A stretch of 12,403 nt of DNA, from contig NZ_JADEXF010000016.1 in the NCBI RefSeq assembly GCF_015207245.1, positions 1-12,403 on the forward strand, read 5' to 3'. Shown here piece by piece: positions 3,816 through 12,088 of the stretch; positions within the stretch are counted from its first letter, which is position 1, and each line of letters starts with the position of its first letter. The notes under the pieces are model-generated. The model was not told where the DNA came from, did no database searches, and was given only the letters and a program-made list of their open reading frames with translations. Source of the stretch: Nostoc cf. edaphicum LEGE 07299. GTDB lineage: Bacteria; Cyanobacteriota; Cyanobacteriia; Cyanobacteriales; Nostocaceae. A program made the position numbers and the translations under genes.

Positions 3816-3832
3816 TTTCATCTTAATTTCAT
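3816..3832 (+). promoter_or_regulatory. CopR-like direct repeat, orphan copy
   Basis: TTTCATCTTAATTTCAT: two TTTCAT hexamers with 5 bases between, an 11-bp period expected for tandem binding of an OmpR/PhoB-type response regulator. It differs by one base from the copies at 5086 and 6210. In this orientation it points toward the 3' end of the deacetylase gene, which is on the other strand, and no plus-strand gene follows. The flavodoxin start lies about 245 bp away in the other direction. Confidence 0.6.
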
Positions 3833-3972: not shown

Positions 3973-4875
3973 TTATGTACCTTTATTCCCTTTATGAAAC
4001 TGTGCTGTTGTTACCAACGGTGTTTTTTGTTCCTGTATTTCTAACAATTCTGGTATGGTTACAAACCGATAACCACGCTGTTTGAGTGAAGCGATAATTT
4101 GTGGTAAAGCCTTAACAGTGCGTGAGCGATCGCCACCACCATCATGCATCAGTACTATGCCACCAGGCTTTGCGTCCTTCAGCACATTATTGACGAGTCT
4201 GGATACTGGAGGACGGCGATAGTCGATCGAGTCATCTGACCACATGAGAACAGCGTAATTATTCTTTTGAGCGTAATCAGCTACACCATTGTTGAGGATG
4301 CCATAAGGCGGACGAAACAGAAAAGTTTTTACTCCCATAATTTGGTAAATAGCTGTTGCGGTGGACTCAATCTCACGCGCAGCAACAGACAGGTTCATAT
4401 GCCGATACCAGTGATGCCACGTATGATTACCAATCGCGTGGCCATCGGCTACCTCTAGCTTGGCAATTTGGGGAAAATAATGCACCATCTCTCCCACACA
4501 GAAGAACGTTGCTTTAATATTTTGTTGCTTCAGGATTTGCAACACTTGTTGCGTGTATTTAGGTGCGGGGCCATCATCAAAAGTCAGTGCAATAACTTTG
4601 TCTGGTTTACTCAGCTGTGCCTGCTGAATGATTTTTCCCTGAAACTCATTAGGGACTGTAAAGATGTAACTGTTCACTTGTGCAACAATAGCTTTATTAG
4701 ATGCCAAACTATGCTGATTGCTCACCGCGCTGGCACTGAGTTGTTCTGGTTTTTTGACTAATGTTTGATGGTCTGAGCGTTCTGAAAACCAAAATCTTCT
4801 GAAACCAAGGTCACATAAGACAGCGACTAGCGGGATGAGTACTATTCCTCCAATCAATAATTTTAGCTTTATCAT
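3973..4875 (-). CDS. Polysaccharide deacetylase, NodB domain (CE4), membrane-anchored or secreted
   Basis: 300 aa. The N-terminal hydrophobic stretch 5-22 is a signal or anchor, followed by a low-complexity spacer to about residue 90. The NodB domain spans about 93-280 and has all the expected motifs: TFDDGP (98-103, catalytic base D100 and metal-binding D101), HTWHH (151-155, metal-binding H151 and H155), RPPYG (188-192), MWSDDSIDY (211-219) and VLMHDG (241-246, His244). Such metal-dependent enzymes remove N-acetyl groups from peptidoglycan or exported polysaccharide in the periplasm; which substrate applies here is not readable from sequence. Length is normal for the family. No clear Shine-Dalgarno precedes the ATG. 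It is divergent from the CopM-like gene and shares its 389-bp control region. A palindrome at 5019-5037 overlaps a possible promoter for it. A link to metal stress through envelope remodelling is only an inference. Confidence 0.92.
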   Translation of the reverse strand: MIKLKLLIGGIVLIPLVAVLCDLGFRRFWFSERSDHQTLVKKPEQLSASAVSNQHSLASNKAIVAQVNSYIFTVPNEFQGKIIQQAQLSKPDKVIALTFDDGPAPKYTQQVLQILKQQNIKATFFCVGEMVHYFPQIAKLEVADGHAIGNHTWHHWYRHMNLSVAAREIESTATAIYQIMGVKTFLFRPPYGILNNGVADYAQKNNYAVLMWSDDSIDYRRPPVSRLVNNVLKDAKPGGIVLMHDGGGDRSRTVKALPQIIASLKQRGYRFVTIPELLEIQEQKTPLVTTAQFHKGNKGT

Positions 4876-5018: not shown

Positions 5019-5037
5019 TTGTAGTAATGTACTACAA
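5019..5037. promoter_or_regulatory. 19-bp perfect palindrome, BlaI/CopY-like operator candidate
   Basis: TTGTAGTAATGTACTACAA has 8-bp arms and a 3-bp centre. TGTAGTA/TACTACA half-sites resemble those of BlaI/CopY-family repressors, the family to which the cyanobacterial copper regulator PetR belongs. It overlaps possible -35 elements in both directions: TTGTAG-N17-TAAAGT on the minus strand (-10 at 5014-5009, toward the deacetylase) and TTGTAG-N16-TCTAAT on the plus strand (-10 at 5041-5046). The palindrome is directly visible; the regulator is inferred. Confidence 0.5.
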
Positions 5038-5085
5038 TCTTCTAATTTCTTGTAGCTAGTCTTTGCTGAGAGCAGGAACCTTTAA

Positions 5086-5102
5086 TTTCATCCTAATTTC
5101 AT
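5086..5102 (+). promoter_or_regulatory. CopR-like box upstream of the CopM-like gene
   Basis: TTTCATCCTAATTTCAT, identical over all 17 bases to the copy at 6210-6226. It matches the TTTCAT-N5-TTTCAT direct repeat that I recall for CopR of Synechocystis, which controls copM and copBAC. A possible -10 (TATCTA, 5118-5123) lies ten bases after the second 11-bp unit, the spacing expected for an activator occupying the -35 region. The start codon is about 160 bp downstream. Confidence 0.7.
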
Positions 5103-5204
5103 CTTCGGCTGTCAAACTATCTAGTAAGTACAACAGTTGCATTGTCAGCAATCAGTTACTTAGATGATTTTATTACTTAAGCAAAAAATAAATCACTTAA
5201 AGGG

Positions 5205-5236
5205 TTGACTCTCCAGTAAACTGGAGATTGCAAAAT
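5205..5236 (+). promoter_or_regulatory. MerR-family metal-responsive promoter/operator
   Basis: The -35 TTGACT (5205-5210) and a -10 CAAAAT (5231-5236, 4/6 matches) are separated by 20 bases, longer than the optimal 17. The spacer contains a perfect inverted repeat; including one flanking base it is TCTCCAGTAAACTGGAGA (5210-5227). An over-long spacer filled by a dyad is the hallmark of promoters controlled by MerR-type activators (CueR, ZntR, CadR). Predicted transcription would start about 20 bp before the ATG at 5265. The regulator gene is not in the window, and the metal cannot be told from the site. Confidence 0.75.
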
Positions 5237-5264
5237 GAAATCAGGAAACATTTAGATAATCACT

Positions 5265-5987
5265 ATGCAACTTTCTATTCTGAAAAACAGCTTTTTGTCA
5301 TTGACCTTAGTAGCGATCGCCTCTGTTCCCAGCGGCTTGTTAATAGCCTGTTCTACAACTACTTCCCAAAACCAAGCATCAAACCCTACTACCACCGCCA
5401 CTGATACTAGTAATAAGCAACCGATGAATCACGGCGGTGGCATGATGAATCATGGTGGTAGCACGATGAACCATAATATGGCAATGGATTTAGGATCAGC
5501 CGATGCTAATTATGATTTGCGGTTTATTGATGCGATGAATCCGCACCACCAAGGAGCAGTGGAGATGGCGAAGGTTGCACAGGAGAAATCGAAACGTCCT
5601 GAAATCAAAAAGTTGGTTTCGGAAATTATTAAAGATCAAGATAAAGAAATCGCTCAGTTGAAACAGTGGCGCACAGCTTGGTATCCCGAAGCAAGCAGTA
5701 CCCCGGTGGCTTATGATGCGAAAACAGGTAAAACAGTCGCAATGCGTGACGAACAAATGCAAGGCATGATGATGAATATGGATTTAGGAGCCGCCGATAC
5801 TGAGTTTGACTTGCGGTTCATAAATGCAATGATTCCCCATCATGAAAGTGCAATTACGATGGCTCAAGATGCAGTAAGTAAGTCTAAGCGTCCTGAAATC
5901 AAGAAATTGGCTCAAAGCATTATTGATTCACAGCAAGCAGAGATTAACGAAATGAAACAGTGGCGAAAAACTTGGTATAACCAGTAA
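5265..5987 (+). CDS. Tandem DUF305 Met/His-rich lipoprotein, CopM-like copper-binding protein
   Basis: 240 aa. The signal peptide ends in the lipobox LIAC (26-29), so Cys29 is probably lipidated. A Ser/Thr/Asn-rich spacer leads to a Met/His-rich stretch (54-74, MNHGG-type units). Two DUF305 repeats follow at about 75-140 and 173-238. Each has DLRFI, AMxPHH (His94/95 and His192/193), a following Met (101, 199) and a conserved C-terminal KQWRxxWY. A second Met cluster (165-172) links them. DUF305 proteins include CopM of Synechocystis, a periplasmic copper-binding protein needed for copper resistance. Full length and both repeats intact suggest a working metal binder on the periplasmic or thylakoid-lumen side. 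No good Shine-Dalgarno sits at the ATG; AGGA at 5243 is 18 bases away. The upstream region carries CopR-like and MerR-type sites. The adaptor and pump genes lie downstream under their own CopR-like box. Confidence 0.92.
   Translation: MQLSILKNSFLSLTLVAIASVPSGLLIACSTTTSQNQASNPTTTATDTSNKQPMNHGGGMMNHGGSTMNHNMAMDLGSADANYDLRFIDAMNPHHQGAVEMAKVAQEKSKRPEIKKLVSEIIKDQDKEIAQLKQWRTAWYPEASSTPVAYDAKTGKTVAMRDEQMQGMMMNMDLGAADTEFDLRFINAMIPHHESAITMAQDAVSKSKRPEIKKLAQSIIDSQQAEINEMKQWRKTWYNQ
5487..5978 (+). repeat. Internal duplication of the DUF305 unit
   Basis: The segments 5487-5684 and 5781-5978 code for 66-residue units that align without gaps at 40 identical positions (about 61%). Both begin DLG and end WY. 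They indicate a within-gene duplication, a layout also expected in CopM-type proteins. Confidence 0.85.
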
Positions 5988-6332
5988 GCAAAAGTATGTG
6001 TGTGAAGCATGAAGCGAGTATGCAGAGCCAATAGACAAGAAATATTTGCTGCCCTTACAGCGCTTCCGGCTATTATGCAATACAGTTTTTCTCCTTGCCC
6101 TCTCCTATCAAAGCTTTCAGATTTGGGGATGTACCTCATAGCTGCCGTAAGTGCTGTAAATTTTAGTAATGTTTAGAGCGATTTGATTTTAAGAGCGGTC
6201 AAAGCTCGATTTCATCCTAATTTCATTTCTGAATGAAAGACTAGTAGAAGAGTGTATTTCTAAAATTTAAAAGTACTTTTGACCGTTCGCAATTTCTTCT
6301 CTCCCATACATACTCAAGGATTTTTAGTAGCG
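5988..6332. other. 345-bp region between the CopM-like gene and the adaptor gene
   Basis: No gene is recognised. It carries an imperfect 11-bp inverted repeat (6055-6065 with 6149-6159, 10/11 matches, 83 bases between) of unknown meaning, and the CopR-like box at 6210-6226. No clear terminator for the CopM-like gene was found. The adaptor gene's ribosome binding site AAGGA is at 6316-6320. Confidence 0.5.
6210..6226 (+). promoter_or_regulatory. CopR-like box upstream of the adaptor-pump operon
   Basis: TTTCATCCTAATTTCAT, identical to the copy at 5086-5102. A possible -10 (TAGTAG, 6242-6247) has exactly the same spacing from the box. The second TTTCAT (6221-6226) also forms an inverted pair with ATGAAA at 6233-6238. 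Together these imply co-induction of the CopM-like gene and the efflux operon by one response regulator. Confidence 0.7.
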
Positions 6333-8018
6333 ATGTCTAACTCTCTGCTTTCCCAAACACCTACAGCTATTCGTTGTTTTTCTGGCACATTCCTGAGCCT
6401 GTTGTTATTAGCAAGTCCCGCAGTTGTTCTGGCTCATGGCGGACATGGAGACGAATTTCAAGGAGGAAGTGAAGCCACTTCAACTAATAATTCTATTCAG
6501 GTTGATGCCGACACAGCCAAACGGTTAGGGATTAAAGTCGAGCCAGTCCAACGTCAAAGGTTAGCTATTGGCATTAAAACTACTGGACAAATAGAGACTC
6601 TTCCTAACCAAAAAGTAGAAGTGACCACCCCAATTGAAGGGGCGAAAGTTATTGAATTGTTGGTGGAACCAGGTGCGTCAGTAAAGAAAGGTCAACCTGT
6701 TGCTGTTGTTACTAGTCCAGGCTTGGTGACGTTACGTGTGGAATCTCAGGACAAATTAGCACAAGGTCAAGCTGATTTACAACTGGCGGAAGCTGACTTA
6801 AGACTGGCTCAACAAAATTACCAAAGATATCAACAAATAGCTGACTCTGAAATTGCCCAAGCACAGAGTCAAGTTGACTTTGCTCAAGAAAAGTACAACA
6901 AAGACAAACAGTTAGCCACTGAAGGGGCTTTACCCCGACGCAATGCTTTAGAATCCCAGACCCAGCTAGCGCAGGCAAAAGCCGAACTTACTAAAGCTAA
7001 CAGCCGTCGGGACGTTATCGGGGCAGAAAATCAACTTAAACGCGCTCAAGCATCAGTTCAGCTAGCAAAGTCAAATATTAATCGCAGTAACACTAGTTAT
7101 CAAACTCGACTTGCTCAGCTGGAAAACCTTCCCAATGCTAAGGGACTAGTAACAGTAACCGCTCCCATCTCTGGTAAGGTTGCTGATAGAGAAGTTACTA
7201 TTGGTCAAACTTTTAATGATGCAGGTGGTAAATTGATGACGATTGCCAATGACAGTCGGCTTTTCGCCACAGCTAACATTTATGAAAAAGATTTAAGCAA
7301 GGTAAAAACTGGTCAAAGGGTGACTCTAAAAGTAGCTAGTGTGCCTGAGCGTACCTTTTCTGGACGAATTTCCCGAATTGGTACGGCGGTAGAAGGAGAA
7401 ACAAGAATTGTACCAGTACAAGCAGAAGTGAATAACTCTAGTGGGCAACTCAAACCAGGAATGTTCGCCGAGCTAGAAGTCTTAACAGACCAAACGTCCT
7501 CTACTATTTCAGCTATTCCTACCTCGGCAGTGGTTGACGCGAATGGTAAGAAAGTTGTTTACGTGCAAAATGGTAATGCTTACCAAACAGTTGAAGTGAC
7601 TTTAGGGCAAACCTCTGGAGATATGGTTGAGGTCAAGAGTGGCTTATTTGAGGGAGATATGATTGTCACTGTGCGCGCACCGCAACTTTATGCACAATCT
7701 CTGCGAGGTGATACCAAACCAAAAGAAGATGAGCATGGTGCAGTTCCCTCACAGACAACAGAGGTTAAAACGTTTAGCTTACCACTACCCTGGTGGATTG
7801 CAGCAGGAGGGGGAGCTACTCTAGCTACTCTAGCTTTTATGGCAGGTACTTTTTGGGCTGGTCGTCGCAGTAAGTCGCCTTTAATACTAATAAATAACTC
7901 AGAGTTAGACCCTCCTGTCTCTGAAACAGAGATTTATGACGACAACTCTAAGTCGCCAGTTTTATCTAGATCGACAGTTGTGCATGAGCAAAAAGACTCT
8001 CAGCATCCACAATCTTAG
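6333..8018 (+). CDS. RND efflux periplasmic adaptor (membrane fusion protein), CopB/CusB/CzcB-like, with C-terminal membrane segment
   Basis: 561 aa from ATG 6333, chosen because AAGGA lies 12 bases upstream and a normal signal peptide (hydrophobic core about 17-32, cleavage after VLA at 34) follows. A TTG at 6279 would add 18 unlikely residues. The mature protein begins HGGHGDEF (35-42), a possible metal-binding tip. Then come the first lipoyl half-domain (about 98-128), a long Ala/Gln-rich coiled-coil hairpin (about 133-270) with two separate helices, the second lipoyl half (about 272-305), a beta-barrel (about 310-385) and a membrane-proximal domain (to about 450). Residues 484-510 form a clear transmembrane segment with an Arg-Arg stop, followed by a 50-residue tail, which is unusual for the family. 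The pump gene starts 48 bases downstream, so the two form an operon behind a CopR-like box. It should link the inner-membrane pump to an outer-membrane channel not encoded here. Confidence 0.93.
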   Translation: MSNSLLSQTPTAIRCFSGTFLSLLLLASPAVVLAHGGHGDEFQGGSEATSTNNSIQVDADTAKRLGIKVEPVQRQRLAIGIKTTGQIETLPNQKVEVTTPIEGAKVIELLVEPGASVKKGQPVAVVTSPGLVTLRVESQDKLAQGQADLQLAEADLRLAQQNYQRYQQIADSEIAQAQSQVDFAQEKYNKDKQLATEGALPRRNALESQTQLAQAKAELTKANSRRDVIGAENQLKRAQASVQLAKSNINRSNTSYQTRLAQLENLPNAKGLVTVTAPISGKVADREVTIGQTFNDAGGKLMTIANDSRLFATANIYEKDLSKVKTGQRVTLKVASVPERTFSGRISRIGTAVEGETRIVPVQAEVNNSSGQLKPGMFAELEVLTDQTSSTISAIPTSAVVDANGKKVVYVQNGNAYQTVEVTLGQTSGDMVEVKSGLFEGDMIVTVRAPQLYAQSLRGDTKPKEDEHGAVPSQTTEVKTFSLPLPWWIAAGGGATLATLAFMAGTFWAGRRSKSPLILINNSELDPPVSETEIYDDNSKSPVLSRSTVVHEQKDSQHPQS

Positions 8019-8066: not shown

Positions 8067-11000
8067 ATGTTAAATGCTATCCTTAAGTGGTCAATTATCC
8101 AACGTTGGATAGTTGTGCTAGGAGCGATTGTAGTCACAATTTGGGGTACATATAACCTCACCCAGATGCCCCTAGATGTCTTTCCTGACTTTGCTCCGCC
8201 TCAAGTTGAAATTCAAACCGAAGCTCCAGGATTAGCACCAGAAGAAGTAGAAACACTAATTACCTTGCCGATTGAAAGTGCAGTGAATGGTACACCAGGG
8301 GTAGAAACAGTACGTTCTTCCTCTGCTGTCAGCATCTCCGTTGTCAAAGTCATTTTTAAATGGGGGACTGACGTTTATCAAGCTCGTCAACTAGTAACAG
8401 AACGATTGCAACAAGTACAGCAAAAATTACCAGAGGGCGTGGAAAATCCCCAAATTTCGCCTATTTCTTCCCCCATTGGCACAGTTCTACAATACGCCTT
8501 CACTGCTGAATCAACCCCACTTATGGAAGTGCGGCGCTTAGTTGACCGAGATGTCACCAATAGATTGCTAGCTGTACCGGGTATTTCCCAAGTAATTGCT
8601 TATGGTGGTGATATTCGCCAGTATCAGATATTGGTTAACCCAGCGAAATTAAAAGCTTTCAATGTCACCTTAGATGAAGTCACATCTGCGGCTAGAGGAG
8701 CTAACATCAATGCTGCGGGTGGGTTTTTAGTCAATCCAGACCAAGAGCTAATTATTCGTGGCTTGGGGCGCATCGAGTCAATTGAGCAACTGGGGAAGTC
8801 TGCAATAACGGCACGAAACGGAACGCCTGTACTACTACAAGATGTGGCAGATGTCAGCATTGGCGCAGCTTTAAAACGTGGTGATGGCAGTTTGGATGGT
8901 CAGCCAGCAATTGTGGTGATGGTCAACAAGCAGCCACAGAATGATACTCCCACGGTTACTAAAGCTGTGGAAAAGGCGATCGCCGAAATTAAAGCAGGTT
9001 TACCTAAAGATGTCAAAGTCATAGAAACCTTCCGTCAAGAAAACTTTATTGAAGCTGCTATTGAAAACGTTACCAGTTCTCTACGCGATGGCATTATCAT
9101 CGTTTCCATCATCTTGTTGATGTTTTTGATGAACTGGCGCACCGCGATTATTACCCTCAGCGCCATTCCCTTATCAGTCTTAATTGGCATGATGATTCTG
9201 GGCTTATTTGGCCAGGGTATCAACACGATGACGCTGGGTGGTCTGGCTGTCGCCATTGGTTCGGTGGTCGATGACTCGATTGTAGATATGGAAAACTGTT
9301 ATCGAGGTCTGCGGAAGAACCAAGTAGCAAGTAATCCGGTGCATCCCTTTAAGGTTGTTTATGATACTTCTGTAGAAGTTAGAGTTAGTGTGATTTTCTC
9401 AACGGTGATTATCGCCGTTGTCTTTGCACCAATTTTCATGCTTACAGGTGTGGAAGGTCGAATATTTGCGCCAATGGGTGTTGCTTATTTGATATCAATT
9501 TTTGCTTCTACATTAGTGGCAATGACTTTATCCCCTGCACTTTGTGCGATATTACTAGCAAATCGTCAATTACCCGCCGATGATACTTGGGTAAGTGCTT
9601 TATCACAACGCATTTATCGACCTCTTGTCAATTTTGCCATCCGTTTCCCCACAATTATTTTGGTAGTTGCGGGAGCATCATTAGTAGCTTCTTTGGTAAT
9701 TTTACCGAGTTTGGGAAGGGTATTTTTACCAGAGTTTCAAGAACCATCCTTAGTGAATACAGTTCTGCTTTATCCAGGAAGTTCTCTGGAGGCGACAAAC
9801 CAAGTTGGATTCGCGTTGGAAGATGCGCTGAAAGACGACAAGCGTTTTAAGACGGTGCAGTTACGAGCTGGACGCGCTGCTGGTGATGCGGATGCAGGGG
9901 GGGTGAATTTGGGACATTTAGATGTGGAATTGAGTGCAGAAGGATTAAAAGATCGAAAAGGGAGTATTGAGAAGCTGCGGGAGGAGTTTGGTAAGATTCC
10001 TGGAGTTGCTGCCAATATTGGCGGCTTTATCTCGCACCGCATGGATGAGGTATTATCTGGGGTAAGAAGTGCGATCGCAGTCAAAATCTTTGGCCCTGAT
10101 TTAGCCCAATTACGTCAAGTCGGATCTGAAGTTCAGTCGGCTATGACTGGAATTCTGGGACTAGTGGATTTACAACTCGAACCCCAAGTCCCCATTAGAC
10201 AGGTGCAAATTCAATTCAACCGAGAAGCAGCCGCTCGTTATGGTTTAACTGTTGGTAATCTGACTGAGATGGTAGAAACTGCGCTTAATGGACGAGTTGT
10301 ATCACAAGTTCTCAAAGACCAACAATTATTCGATTTGGTGGTTTGGTTACAGCTAGAATCACGCAATAATTTAGATATCATCCGCAATTTGTTAATAGAT
10401 ACACCTACAGGGCAAAAAATACCTCTAGCTCAGGTCGCCAGTATTGATTATGGAACTGGCCCTAACACAATTAATCGGGAAAATGTTTCTCGCTTGATTG
10501 TTGTTTCTGCGAATGTCTCCGGTCGAGATTTAGGCTCTGTGGTGGAGGAAATTCAAAACAAAGTCCGTCAGTCGATACAGTTACCTACAGGGTATTTTAT
10601 CCAATACGGCGGTCAGTTTGAATCAGAGCAACGAGCCACCCAAAATTTGCTAGTCTTTGGGGGATTAGCGTTGGTCATCATTGCAGTCTTAATGTACTTC
10701 GCAGTTAAATCTGTTGCTGCCATGCTGATGATCATGATTAACTTACCTTTGGCTTTGGTGGGAGGTATATTTTCTATTGCTTTGGGGGGCGGGATTATCT
10801 CTATCGCTTCCTTAGTAGGATTTATTACTCTATTTGGTGTAGCAACACGTAACGGACTACTGCTAGTAGATAACTACAACGGCAAGATTGCACAGGGAAT
10901 GCCTTTACAGCAAGTAATTTTTGAGGGTTCAACGGAGCGATTGGTCGCCATTTTGATGACGGCTCTCACTTCAGCTTTAGGAATGATACCTTTAGTAATT

Positions 11001-11204
11001 GGTACAGGTGCAGGGAAAGAAATATTACAGCCTTTAGCTGTAGTGGTTTTGGGCGGATTGTTTACTTCTACAGCATTAACTTTAATGGTCTTACCAGCTT
11101 TATATGCTAAGTTTGGTAAGTTCTTGTTGCCTAAACATACTATGTCAGTTGTAGAGGATGGCAAAGTACCAAAAGCAGTTTTTGAGAATCAATCAATATC
11201 ATAA
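8067..11204 (+). CDS. HME-family RND heavy-metal efflux permease, CopA/CusA/CzcA-like
   Basis: 1045 aa, normal full length. It has the two-fold RND layout: a membrane segment at 10-32, a periplasmic loop to about 335, segments between about 340 and 500, another segment at about 528-548, a second periplasmic loop to about 860, and the last segments at about 862-1015. QMPLDVFPDFAPPQVEIQT (33-51) is the usual HME start. TM4 carries IGSVVDDSIVDMEN (397-410) with D402, D403 and E409, the charged proton-relay residues expected in metal RND pumps. The motif resembles the broad VVDDAxVDVEN group more than the CusA AMVDAAIVMIEN form. Aligning FLPEFQEP with CusA places Thr565 where CusA has the copper ligand Met573, so copper specificity rests on context, not on this residue. 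The pump uses proton entry to export metal with the adaptor encoded just upstream. The ATG lacks a visible ribosome binding site. Confidence 0.94.
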   Translation: MLNAILKWSIIQRWIVVLGAIVVTIWGTYNLTQMPLDVFPDFAPPQVEIQTEAPGLAPEEVETLITLPIESAVNGTPGVETVRSSSAVSISVVKVIFKWGTDVYQARQLVTERLQQVQQKLPEGVENPQISPISSPIGTVLQYAFTAESTPLMEVRRLVDRDVTNRLLAVPGISQVIAYGGDIRQYQILVNPAKLKAFNVTLDEVTSAARGANINAAGGFLVNPDQELIIRGLGRIESIEQLGKSAITARNGTPVLLQDVADVSIGAALKRGDGSLDGQPAIVVMVNKQPQNDTPTVTKAVEKAIAEIKAGLPKDVKVIETFRQENFIEAAIENVTSSLRDGIIIVSIILLMFLMNWRTAIITLSAIPLSVLIGMMILGLFGQGINTMTLGGLAVAIGSVVDDSIVDMENCYRGLRKNQVASNPVHPFKVVYDTSVEVRVSVIFSTVIIAVVFAPIFMLTGVEGRIFAPMGVAYLISIFASTLVAMTLSPALCAILLANRQLPADDTWVSALSQRIYRPLVNFAIRFPTIILVVAGASLVASLVILPSLGRVFLPEFQEPSLVNTVLLYPGSSLEATNQVGFALEDALKDDKRFKTVQLRAGRAAGDADAGGVNLGHLDVELSAEGLKDRKGSIEKLREEFGKIPGVAANIGGFISHRMDEVLSGVRSAIAVKIFGPDLAQLRQVGSEVQSAMTGILGLVDLQLEPQVPIRQVQIQFNREAAARYGLTVGNLTEMVETALNGRVVSQVLKDQQLFDLVVWLQLESRNNLDIIRNLLIDTPTGQKIPLAQVASIDYGTGPNTINRENVSRLIVVSANVSGRDLGSVVEEIQNKVRQSIQLPTGYFIQYGGQFESEQRATQNLLVFGGLALVIIAVLMYFAVKSVAAMLMIMINLPLALVGGIFSIALGGGIISIASLVGFITLFGVATRNGLLLVDNYNGKIAQGMPLQQVIFEGSTERLVAILMTALTSALGMIPLVIGTGAGKEILQPLAVVVLGGLFTSTALTLMVLPALYAKFGKFLLPKHTMSVVEDGKVPKAVFENQSIS

Positions 11205-11413: not shown

Positions 11414-12088
11414 TTAATCTGAATGTGACTCTGGATAAAGAAGATTGTGTTCAGTGTTAGGGGGATCAACAGCCGAACCCGCAGCCGCTGCTCCAACATA
11501 GTCTATATTGTAGATTTTTTTGAGCCAGCTTCGCAGCTGATTGATTTCCCTTGTTTGCTGAGTGACAACATTGGCACCTAAGTTTACAAATTCTACATGA
11601 TAACTGCGGTCAATAATCTCTCCAGCAAATATAATGGCACCCCAGTGGTGTGAGGTCAAAGTCTTCATGAACATGATATTAAAATCGTCTCCACTCAACC
11701 TTGATAGCTGATTTATTACATTTTGACCAAATCTGTTCGATGTTGGTGAATACGAGATGCCATACCAGTTACTAAGCCACGACTGCATCGTTTGAATTTC
11801 TTGCTGTTGAGCGGTAATGACCTGACGACAAAGCGATTTCAATTCTTGAAGTGTAGCCCTCCGCAAACATACCTCCGACATTTCAATTGCAAAGTTGTGA
11901 CCGTCAATTAAATCCCGTAGAAGGCGAATTTCAAGTTGCGTGAGCCTGTTTCTTGGAGCGGGTTGGCTTGCTAGTATTGGCTCAATCGCAATAGTAAAAA
12001 CGCCAAGGGTGGGTGTCAGAGCTAGAAGCACTCGTAAAGCGATGCTAGCAGTTAAACATGGTAGTGAGCTTTTCCTATTATTCAACAT
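11414..12088 (-). CDS. Diverged DUF305 family protein, exported
   Basis: 224 aa; ATG with AGGA three bases upstream (12092-12095 on the plus strand). A hydrophobic stretch at about 14-38 ends before ILA-SQP (38-43), fitting a signal peptide or anchor. Two degenerate DUF305 units are seen. Unit one (about 52-109) has LIDGHNFAIEMSE where MxPHHxxAxxMA is expected, and ends in MQSWLSNWY. Unit two (about 135-192) keeps the His pair in TSHHWGAIIFA (145-155) but has lost the following Met, and ends in LRSWLKKIY. The Met/His-rich linker is missing. Two Cys (74 and 87) appear in unit one. The protein is therefore likely exported, but its ability to bind copper like CopM is doubtful. It points toward the pump gene from the opposite strand and appears to be separately transcribed. 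The family call rests on the HH motif, the paired helices and the W-rich repeat ends. Confidence 0.8.
   Translation of the reverse strand: MLNNRKSSLPCLTASIALRVLLALTPTLGVFTIAIEPILASQPAPRNRLTQLEIRLLRDLIDGHNFAIEMSEVCLRRATLQELKSLCRQVITAQQQEIQTMQSWLSNWYGISYSPTSNRFGQNVINQLSRLSGDDFNIMFMKTLTSHHWGAIIFAGEIIDRSYHVEFVNLGANVVTQQTREINQLRSWLKKIYNIDYVGAAAAGSAVDPPNTEHNLLYPESHSD

Follow-up and report, generated by a model that had tools for sequence, protein, structure and literature searches.

Which regulators act on the gene for a CopM-like protein in Nostoc cf. edaphicum LEGE 07299, and how many of them are concerned with copper? An initial annotation of the 12,403 nucleotides analysed here (the window) had placed three metal-regulator-type sites before this single gene, a BlaI/CopY-like palindrome, a CopR-like direct repeat and a MerR-type promoter, and all three are found in the sequence as claimed.

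Reviews describe copper resistance of cyanobacteria as running via CopRS and the plastocyanin switch via PetRP, and in the marine cyanobacteria sampled in one study no one-component copper regulators were reported (PMC10141476); these and the following publications are cited for the accessible portions of their text. In Anabaena 7120, northern blots showed copper induction of three copM homologues, one of which has copper ATPase and RND genes as neighbours, as in the window (PMC4335983). Synechocystis CoaR/CorR is a MerR homologue that drives a metal ATPase and serves cobalt resistance (PMC4284471). A bulk comparative study of MerR-family proteins and their sites took in Cyanobacteria, which are mentioned among its HMRTR correlations (PMC5045206). 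Outside the cyanobacteria, Salmonella cueP is jointly controlled by CueR and CpxR, the two pathways being termed additive and their logic AND-like (PMC13201067).

Results

The copM locus

The window carries a copper cluster of a multicopper oxidase, a flavodoxin, a divergent deacetylase, copM, an RND adaptor, a CusA-type pump and a second DUF305 gene. The genes that concern us here are the following.

3973..4875, minus strand: polysaccharide deacetylase, divergent from copM (PF01522, 115.7 bits, cut-off 23.1)
5265..5987, plus strand: copM, 240 aa, CopM/DUF305 domains
6333..8018, plus strand: CusB/HlyD-type RND adaptor (TIGR01730, 143 bits, cut-off 94.9, scanned over 6318-8015)
8067..11204, plus strand: CusA/CzcA-type heavy-metal RND pump (TIGR00914, 819 bits, cut-off 701)
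11414-12088, minus strand: second, diverged DUF305 gene at the cluster end

The adaptor reading frame is listed from 6279, its start at 6333 being inferred from relatives. The copM product exceeds the cut-offs of the CopM model NF049983 (130 bits, cut-off 90) and of the DUF305 model PF03713 (147 bits, cut-off 27). Judged by eye, it is rich in His and Met and has a lipoprotein-type signal, and it is predicted to be an exported copper-trapping protein. Nostoc sp. B(2019) (L001) has a CopM of identical sequence. The assembly of the window strain itself (G000:C319) is 73% complete.

The gap of 389 bp between the deacetylase gene and copM contains the palindrome, the direct repeat (P1) and the MerR-type promoter (P2). 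A second copy of the repeat lies further downstream.

5019..5037, no strand: perfect palindrome TTGTAGTA-ATG-TACTACAA
5050..5055, plus strand: TTGTAG half-site, the third, 31 bp beyond the first; several aligned loci retain it as CTTGTAGCT
5086..5102, plus strand: predicted P1 activator site of the CopR/RppA class, direct repeat TTTCAT-CCTAA-TTTCAT, that is TTTCATCCTAATTTCAT
5118..5123, plus strand: P1 -10-like box TATCTA, 15 nt past the repeat
5205..5236, plus strand: P2, MerR-type promoter, -35 TTGACT at 5205-5210, 20-bp spacer, -10 CAAAAT at 5231-5236
5211..5226, no strand: predicted MerR-family operator dyad CTCCAGT-AA-ACTGGAG within the P2 spacer
6210..6226, plus strand: second copy of this repeat, identical, ahead of the RND adaptor gene, with a -10-like TAGTAG at 6242-6247

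P1, a direct repeat of the response-regulator type

The P1 repeat has a period of 11 bp, its 10-nt copies lying at 5083-5092 and 5094-5103. When the 389-bp intergenic sequence was shuffled 300 times by dinucleotides, no 10-nt repeat with this period arose, and the repeat is not due to chance. Among 19 copM loci (the window and 18 fetched loci) it is found exactly, within 700 bp upstream, in 14; L004 has it with one mismatch, and in L018 two transposase genes stand between repeat and copM. In 81 repeats of the class, a copper-biased and related set drawn from the fetched loci, T at +24 and G at +25 occur in 73 each, at positions outside the search pattern, and T at +32 in 72, where it begins the -10-like box 15 nt beyond the repeat. 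A further TTTCAT-N5-TTTCAT is seen at 3816-3832, between the flavodoxin and deacetylase genes, with no obvious gene downstream on the same strand.

Before both copM and the RND adaptor the repeat reads TTCAT-N6-TTCAT, whereas the CopR motif published for Synechocystis has the shorter spacing TTCAT-N4-5-TTCAT (PMC4182526); in contrast to Synechocystis, moreover, no copRS pair lies within the window. Two response regulators from relatives' copper clusters pass the RppA model NF041734 (406.6 and 327.1 bits, cut-off 250) and fail TIGR01387, the heavy-metal CopR subfamily (184.3 and 153.1 bits, cut-off 279.2). Because of the N6 spacing and these scores, we call the P1 site CopR/RppA-class, which refines the earlier CopR-like label; the 11-bp period on which that label drew stands.

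P2, a MerR-type promoter with a shared operator

MerR/HMRTR sites of 22 bp have a spacer of 19-20 bp and a dyad centre 8 bp from the -35, against 7 bp for CueR (PMC5045206). P2 agrees with the former on both counts, with 20 bp between its hexamers and a dyad centred 8 bp from the 3' end of the -35, so that the claim of a MerR-type promoter with a dyad in a 20-bp spacer is borne out, its geometry being that of MerR/HMRTR and not of CueR. A generic promoter scan did not list P2, since it permits just 16-18 nt between hexamers.

A 22-base core of P2 is present upstream of copM without mismatch in nine of the 19 loci, with one to three mismatches in four and with four in one, and is absent from five. 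With up to three mismatches it is thus found in 13/19 copM upstreams, and likewise in 9/11 further ones. The operator is widely shared: allowing one mismatch, it occurs in 60 of the 147 genomes from the order that were searched, with 88 matches in all and none for the reversed pattern, an abundance far above chance, related genomes being non-independent samples in this count as in that of the pairs below. With two mismatches allowed, it turns up in 16 of 17 nearer genomes, at the cost of one control match. At least 45 of the 88 matches have a copA gene less than 800 bp downstream, and at least nine precede a gene of one MerR family, in both cases on the same strand, while 34 have neither assignment. 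A search of the window strain's own genome with three mismatches gave eight matches, including the window site and its reverse reading. The operator is also found there before two chaperone-copA operons, at three mismatches from the pattern and with one operon counted in both readings; three of the eight loose matches, one of whose loci was read, are without copper link.

We considered P2 as part of the deacetylase neighbourhood and dropped this reading, since P2 is kept in L005 and L012, where the deacetylase is absent. It is also highly improbable that the P2 dyad acts at the RNA level, as a hairpin in the P1 transcript leader, rather than as a MerR operator. Transcripts from P1 would indeed include this inverted repeat, but its arms do not covary over 52 distinct P2-type sites (fetched loci, at most one mismatch), where 51 have C in column 10 and 8 have A in the paired column 19, and on this ground the hairpin was rejected. 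Moreover, the spacing of the dyad to the -35 and -10 is fixed, and -10 positions A2 and T6, both outside the search pattern, are invariant in all 52 sites.

Candidate MerR regulators

Relatives' copper clusters encode a short MerR protein of 135-149 aa (type B1), and in 20 of 24 such genes a P2-type operator lies 43-72 bp upstream, a position that again argues against a hairpin. None of ten genes for a paralogue (B2), which adjoins copA or cupredoxin genes in several genomes, has such an operator. A B-family MerR is encoded (1e-15) in 58 of the 60 genomes with the operator versus 60 of the 87 others (Fisher p 1.4e-5); when weaker matches are dropped, the numbers are 56 versus 46.

The metal loop of CueR has two C-terminal cysteines, C112 and C120. 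In each of the 21 B1-type proteins checked, a PCxxI motif and an ICP tail contribute one Cys apiece; one protein has an extra N-terminal Cys, and the second C-terminal Cys of the CueR pair is absent from all 21. The single B1 protein scanned matches Pfam MerR domains but stays below every NCBIfam equivalog cut-off, reaching 100 of 151 bits with MerR; with CueR TIGR02044, B1 scores 89.4 and B2 82.4 bits, against a cut-off of 147.4. Lacking the CueR Cys pair and falling below these cut-offs, B1 could respond to a metal other than copper. P1 alone would then be linked to copper, P2 would serve another metal (Zn, Cd, Hg, Co) or thiol stress, and copM would be a general metal-stress gene. We consider this unlikely. 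It agrees with the Cys in LPCEH, which we take to be the C79-type position, as in divalent-metal sensors; with the best score of B1, which is to the Hg MerR model (100 bits, CueR 89); and with the nearest solved chain, 4ua1, listed as 'Regulatory protein' and presumably a Hg MerR. Against it, the genes behind P2-type operators are for the most part those of copper-type ATPases, copper chaperones and CopM, and the CopA of a relative scores above the cut-off of TIGR01511, the copper-ATPase subfamily model (671 bits, cut-off 397). From these neighbours, copper would be the metal acting at P2.

Judging from relatives, a B-family MerR is a candidate regulator of P2 in the window strain. The strain's own assembly gave two MerR-domain matches, neither of B type, and the genome nearest to the window (G001) gave five, including one B2 and one type A but no B1. 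Type A is a MerR of 162 aa with an N-terminal Cys pair, encoded in the same copper clusters (L062-L066), where its genes have an operator of their own, mostly TTGACTCTCTAGC-N-GACTATAGACTTTAAAGT, unlike that of P2. In L183, on a plasmid of Leptolyngbya boryana NIES-2135, a type-A-like MerR gene stands directly behind a copM having both promoters, so that another MerR type may serve P2 there. Two plasmids typed conjugative (L177, L181) have a MerR with its own operator, a cupredoxin, copA, a four-helix copper protein, copM and RND genes together.

The upstream palindrome

Whether the palindrome is a third copper operator is a separate question. Palindromes with 8-nt arms and a spacer of 0-6 nt appear in 7% of dinucleotide shuffles of the 389-bp region, which has two, namely the upstream palindrome and, if lengthened by one base, the P2 dyad; at this frequency, the palindrome alone is weak evidence. 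The core TGTAGT-N5-ACTACA occurs at chance level genome-wide (24 forward versus 21 control matches, in 18 genomes). It is found in six of ten copM loci with a whole or partial deacetylase gene and in none of nine without (Fisher p 0.011, an association inflated by the kinship of the loci). In 11 copM loci from named plasmids, added later, it is absent, also from the three with a deacetylase, which gives 6/30 copM loci in total, each having a deacetylase. L004 has another core, and in L018 the palindrome is 2.6 kb from copM. Conservation in relatives, which the initial annotation had proposed as a check on the three sites, thus favours the direct repeat and the MerR-type promoter and is weak for the palindrome. 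Its outer arms vary together between loci (window, L003, L008), being GATTGTAGTA/TACTACAATC or ACACTGTAGTA/TACTACAGTGT.

BlaI/CopY operators have half-sites in the order TACA...TGTA. The palindrome has the opposite order, TGTA...TACA, and the sole BlaI-family gene found in the window strain's genome, at 73% completeness, is PetR-like and lies beside a protease-like gene. Another palindrome, GACA-N3-TGTC, starts 63-79 bp ahead of the start codon in all ten petE upstreams examined (L146-L155) and is probably the PetR site. The BlaI/CopY-like assignment of the initial annotation is not supported by these observations, and a BlaI, CopY or PetR reading was rejected as unsupported. NtcA was rejected by eye as well: its site is GTA-N8-TAC, and the spacing here is 9 instead of 8.

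That the palindrome should nevertheless be a true third copper operator (BlaI/CopY or PetR), placing copM under three-way control, seems very improbable to us. Such a role would suit its perfect symmetry, the joint difference of the arms between L003 and L008, the identical 17-mer in five genomes and the PetR-PetP-like pair of the own genome, but half-site order, the petE palindromes and confinement to deacetylase loci all stand against it. A link of the palindrome with the divergent deacetylase is more likely than one with copM. Specifically, it could be a deacetylase operator for a dimeric regulator, beside the copper promoters by chance, a possibility to which we give slightly less than an even chance. 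It is favoured by the association with deacetylase loci and by L004, where the same half-sites flank another core about as far from the deacetylase start (129 versus 145 bp); on the other side, this distance is 227-230 bp in L003 and L008, and the three deacetylase loci of the later set are without the palindrome. The palindrome is outside the pair formed by P1 and P2.

Recurrence of the tandem pair

The pair was searched for in 388 genomes as the exact P1 repeat followed 61-120 bp on by TTGACWCTCCA. It occurs 18 times, in 16 of the 388 genomes, and the reversed control gave no match. The genes 3' of the 18 pairs are DUF305/copM in ten cases (all by domain scan, window included), a chaperone and/or copA in four (by sequence), and a DUF411 gene with a multicopper oxidase in two (DUF411 of L172 by scan, that of L173 and both oxidases by eye). 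Two pairs, L163 and L176, the latter with a poor dyad, have no clear copper gene 3'.

The 11 further copM loci on named plasmids have both sites in eight cases, P2 alone in one (L185) and a proximal repeat alone in two (L186, L187). One of the eight loci with both sites is from Leptolyngbya, which belongs to another order in the NCBI taxonomy. Where P2 is missing, in L009-L011 and L015, a repeat takes the proximal position instead, at -62 to -72; in L014 neither the P1 repeat nor P2 was found upstream of copM. Scytonema sp. NIES-4073 (L009, L012) has a plasmid copM with two CopR-type repeats and a chromosomal copM with two repeats and a MerR promoter. In Komarekiella delphini-convector (L145, G017:C128), two transposase genes separate P1 and the palindrome from P2 and copM. 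The copM reading frame of this locus is short (89 aa).

The suggestion that one gene stands under both a response-regulator-type and a MerR-type promoter is thus supported at the level of sequence architecture, which is kept in relatives and recurs elsewhere. This architecture, its conservation, the sharing of the operator and the recurrence of the pair are direct observations.

Discussion

We propose that copM probably has two tandem, independently switched copper promoters, with an envelope input at P1 and a cytosolic input at P2. As regards binding, start sites and regulatory logic, the following course of events may be envisaged. A kinase would sense copper in the periplasm or thylakoid lumen, and an OmpR-type regulator of the CopR/RppA class, once phosphorylated, would bind P1 and recruit RNA polymerase to the -10-like box at 5118, with transcription predicted to start near 5130. 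At P2, a MerR-family dimer on the spacer dyad would hold the promoter closed until cytosolic copper binds it, whereupon the DNA would be untwisted and polymerase could start near 5243. The same type of operator would also serve copA, its chaperone and, in relatives, the short MerR gene. CopM would accordingly rise when either compartment has excess copper, in a roughly additive OR. As transcripts from P1 cross P2, the apo-MerR could also hinder these.

Control of a periplasmic copper protein by a MerR protein together with a response regulator is already known from Salmonella cueP, and the cyanobacterial tandem pair would be a variant of it. In both cases, the gene of a periplasmic copper protein stands under a MerR-family cytosolic copper sensor and an OmpR-type regulator, both of them predicted at copM. 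The second input of cueP is Cpx envelope stress, whereas the copM repeat is of the CopR/RppA class and is found before copper genes. The copM case differs further in its cyanobacterial host and in that some 100 bp separate the P1 and P2 sites, which have one -10-like box each.

Compared with copMRS and copBAC of Synechocystis under CopRS, the window likewise has a TTCAT direct repeat before copM and before RND genes. P2, however, is a difference, as the accessible text on Synechocystis copM describes no MerR promoter (PMC4182526, PMC4335983). P2 shares the spacer and dyad geometry of the MerR/HMRTR sites of the bulk comparative study, the accessible text of which leaves copM and a tandem CopR site unmentioned (PMC5045206). 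CoaR has a precorrin-isomerase domain, in contrast to the B-family MerR of about 137 aa, which is without it. Our search of the literature, to which most subscription papers were closed, met with no description of a cyanobacterial MerR copper regulon or of the tandem pair.

On a wider reading we are almost evenly divided and put it forward tentatively. The short two-Cys MerR, with one C79-type and one C-terminal Cys, might be an undescribed cyanobacterial equivalent of CueR that responds to copper in the cytosol and controls copA, the chaperone, itself and copM. Its promoter would have been repeatedly paired with a CopR/RppA-type promoter, at copM, chaperone-copA and DUF411-oxidase genes, giving a two-compartment input, and the set would be mobile on conjugative plasmids.

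If true, the two-cysteine site of this regulator would be a metal site unlike that of CueR. Likewise, the conserved MerR-type promoter at copA and copM would, if true, add a cytosolic copper sensor in much of the order. The tandem pair may offer a way to test how cyanobacteria weigh thylakoid or periplasmic against cytosolic copper at a single gene.
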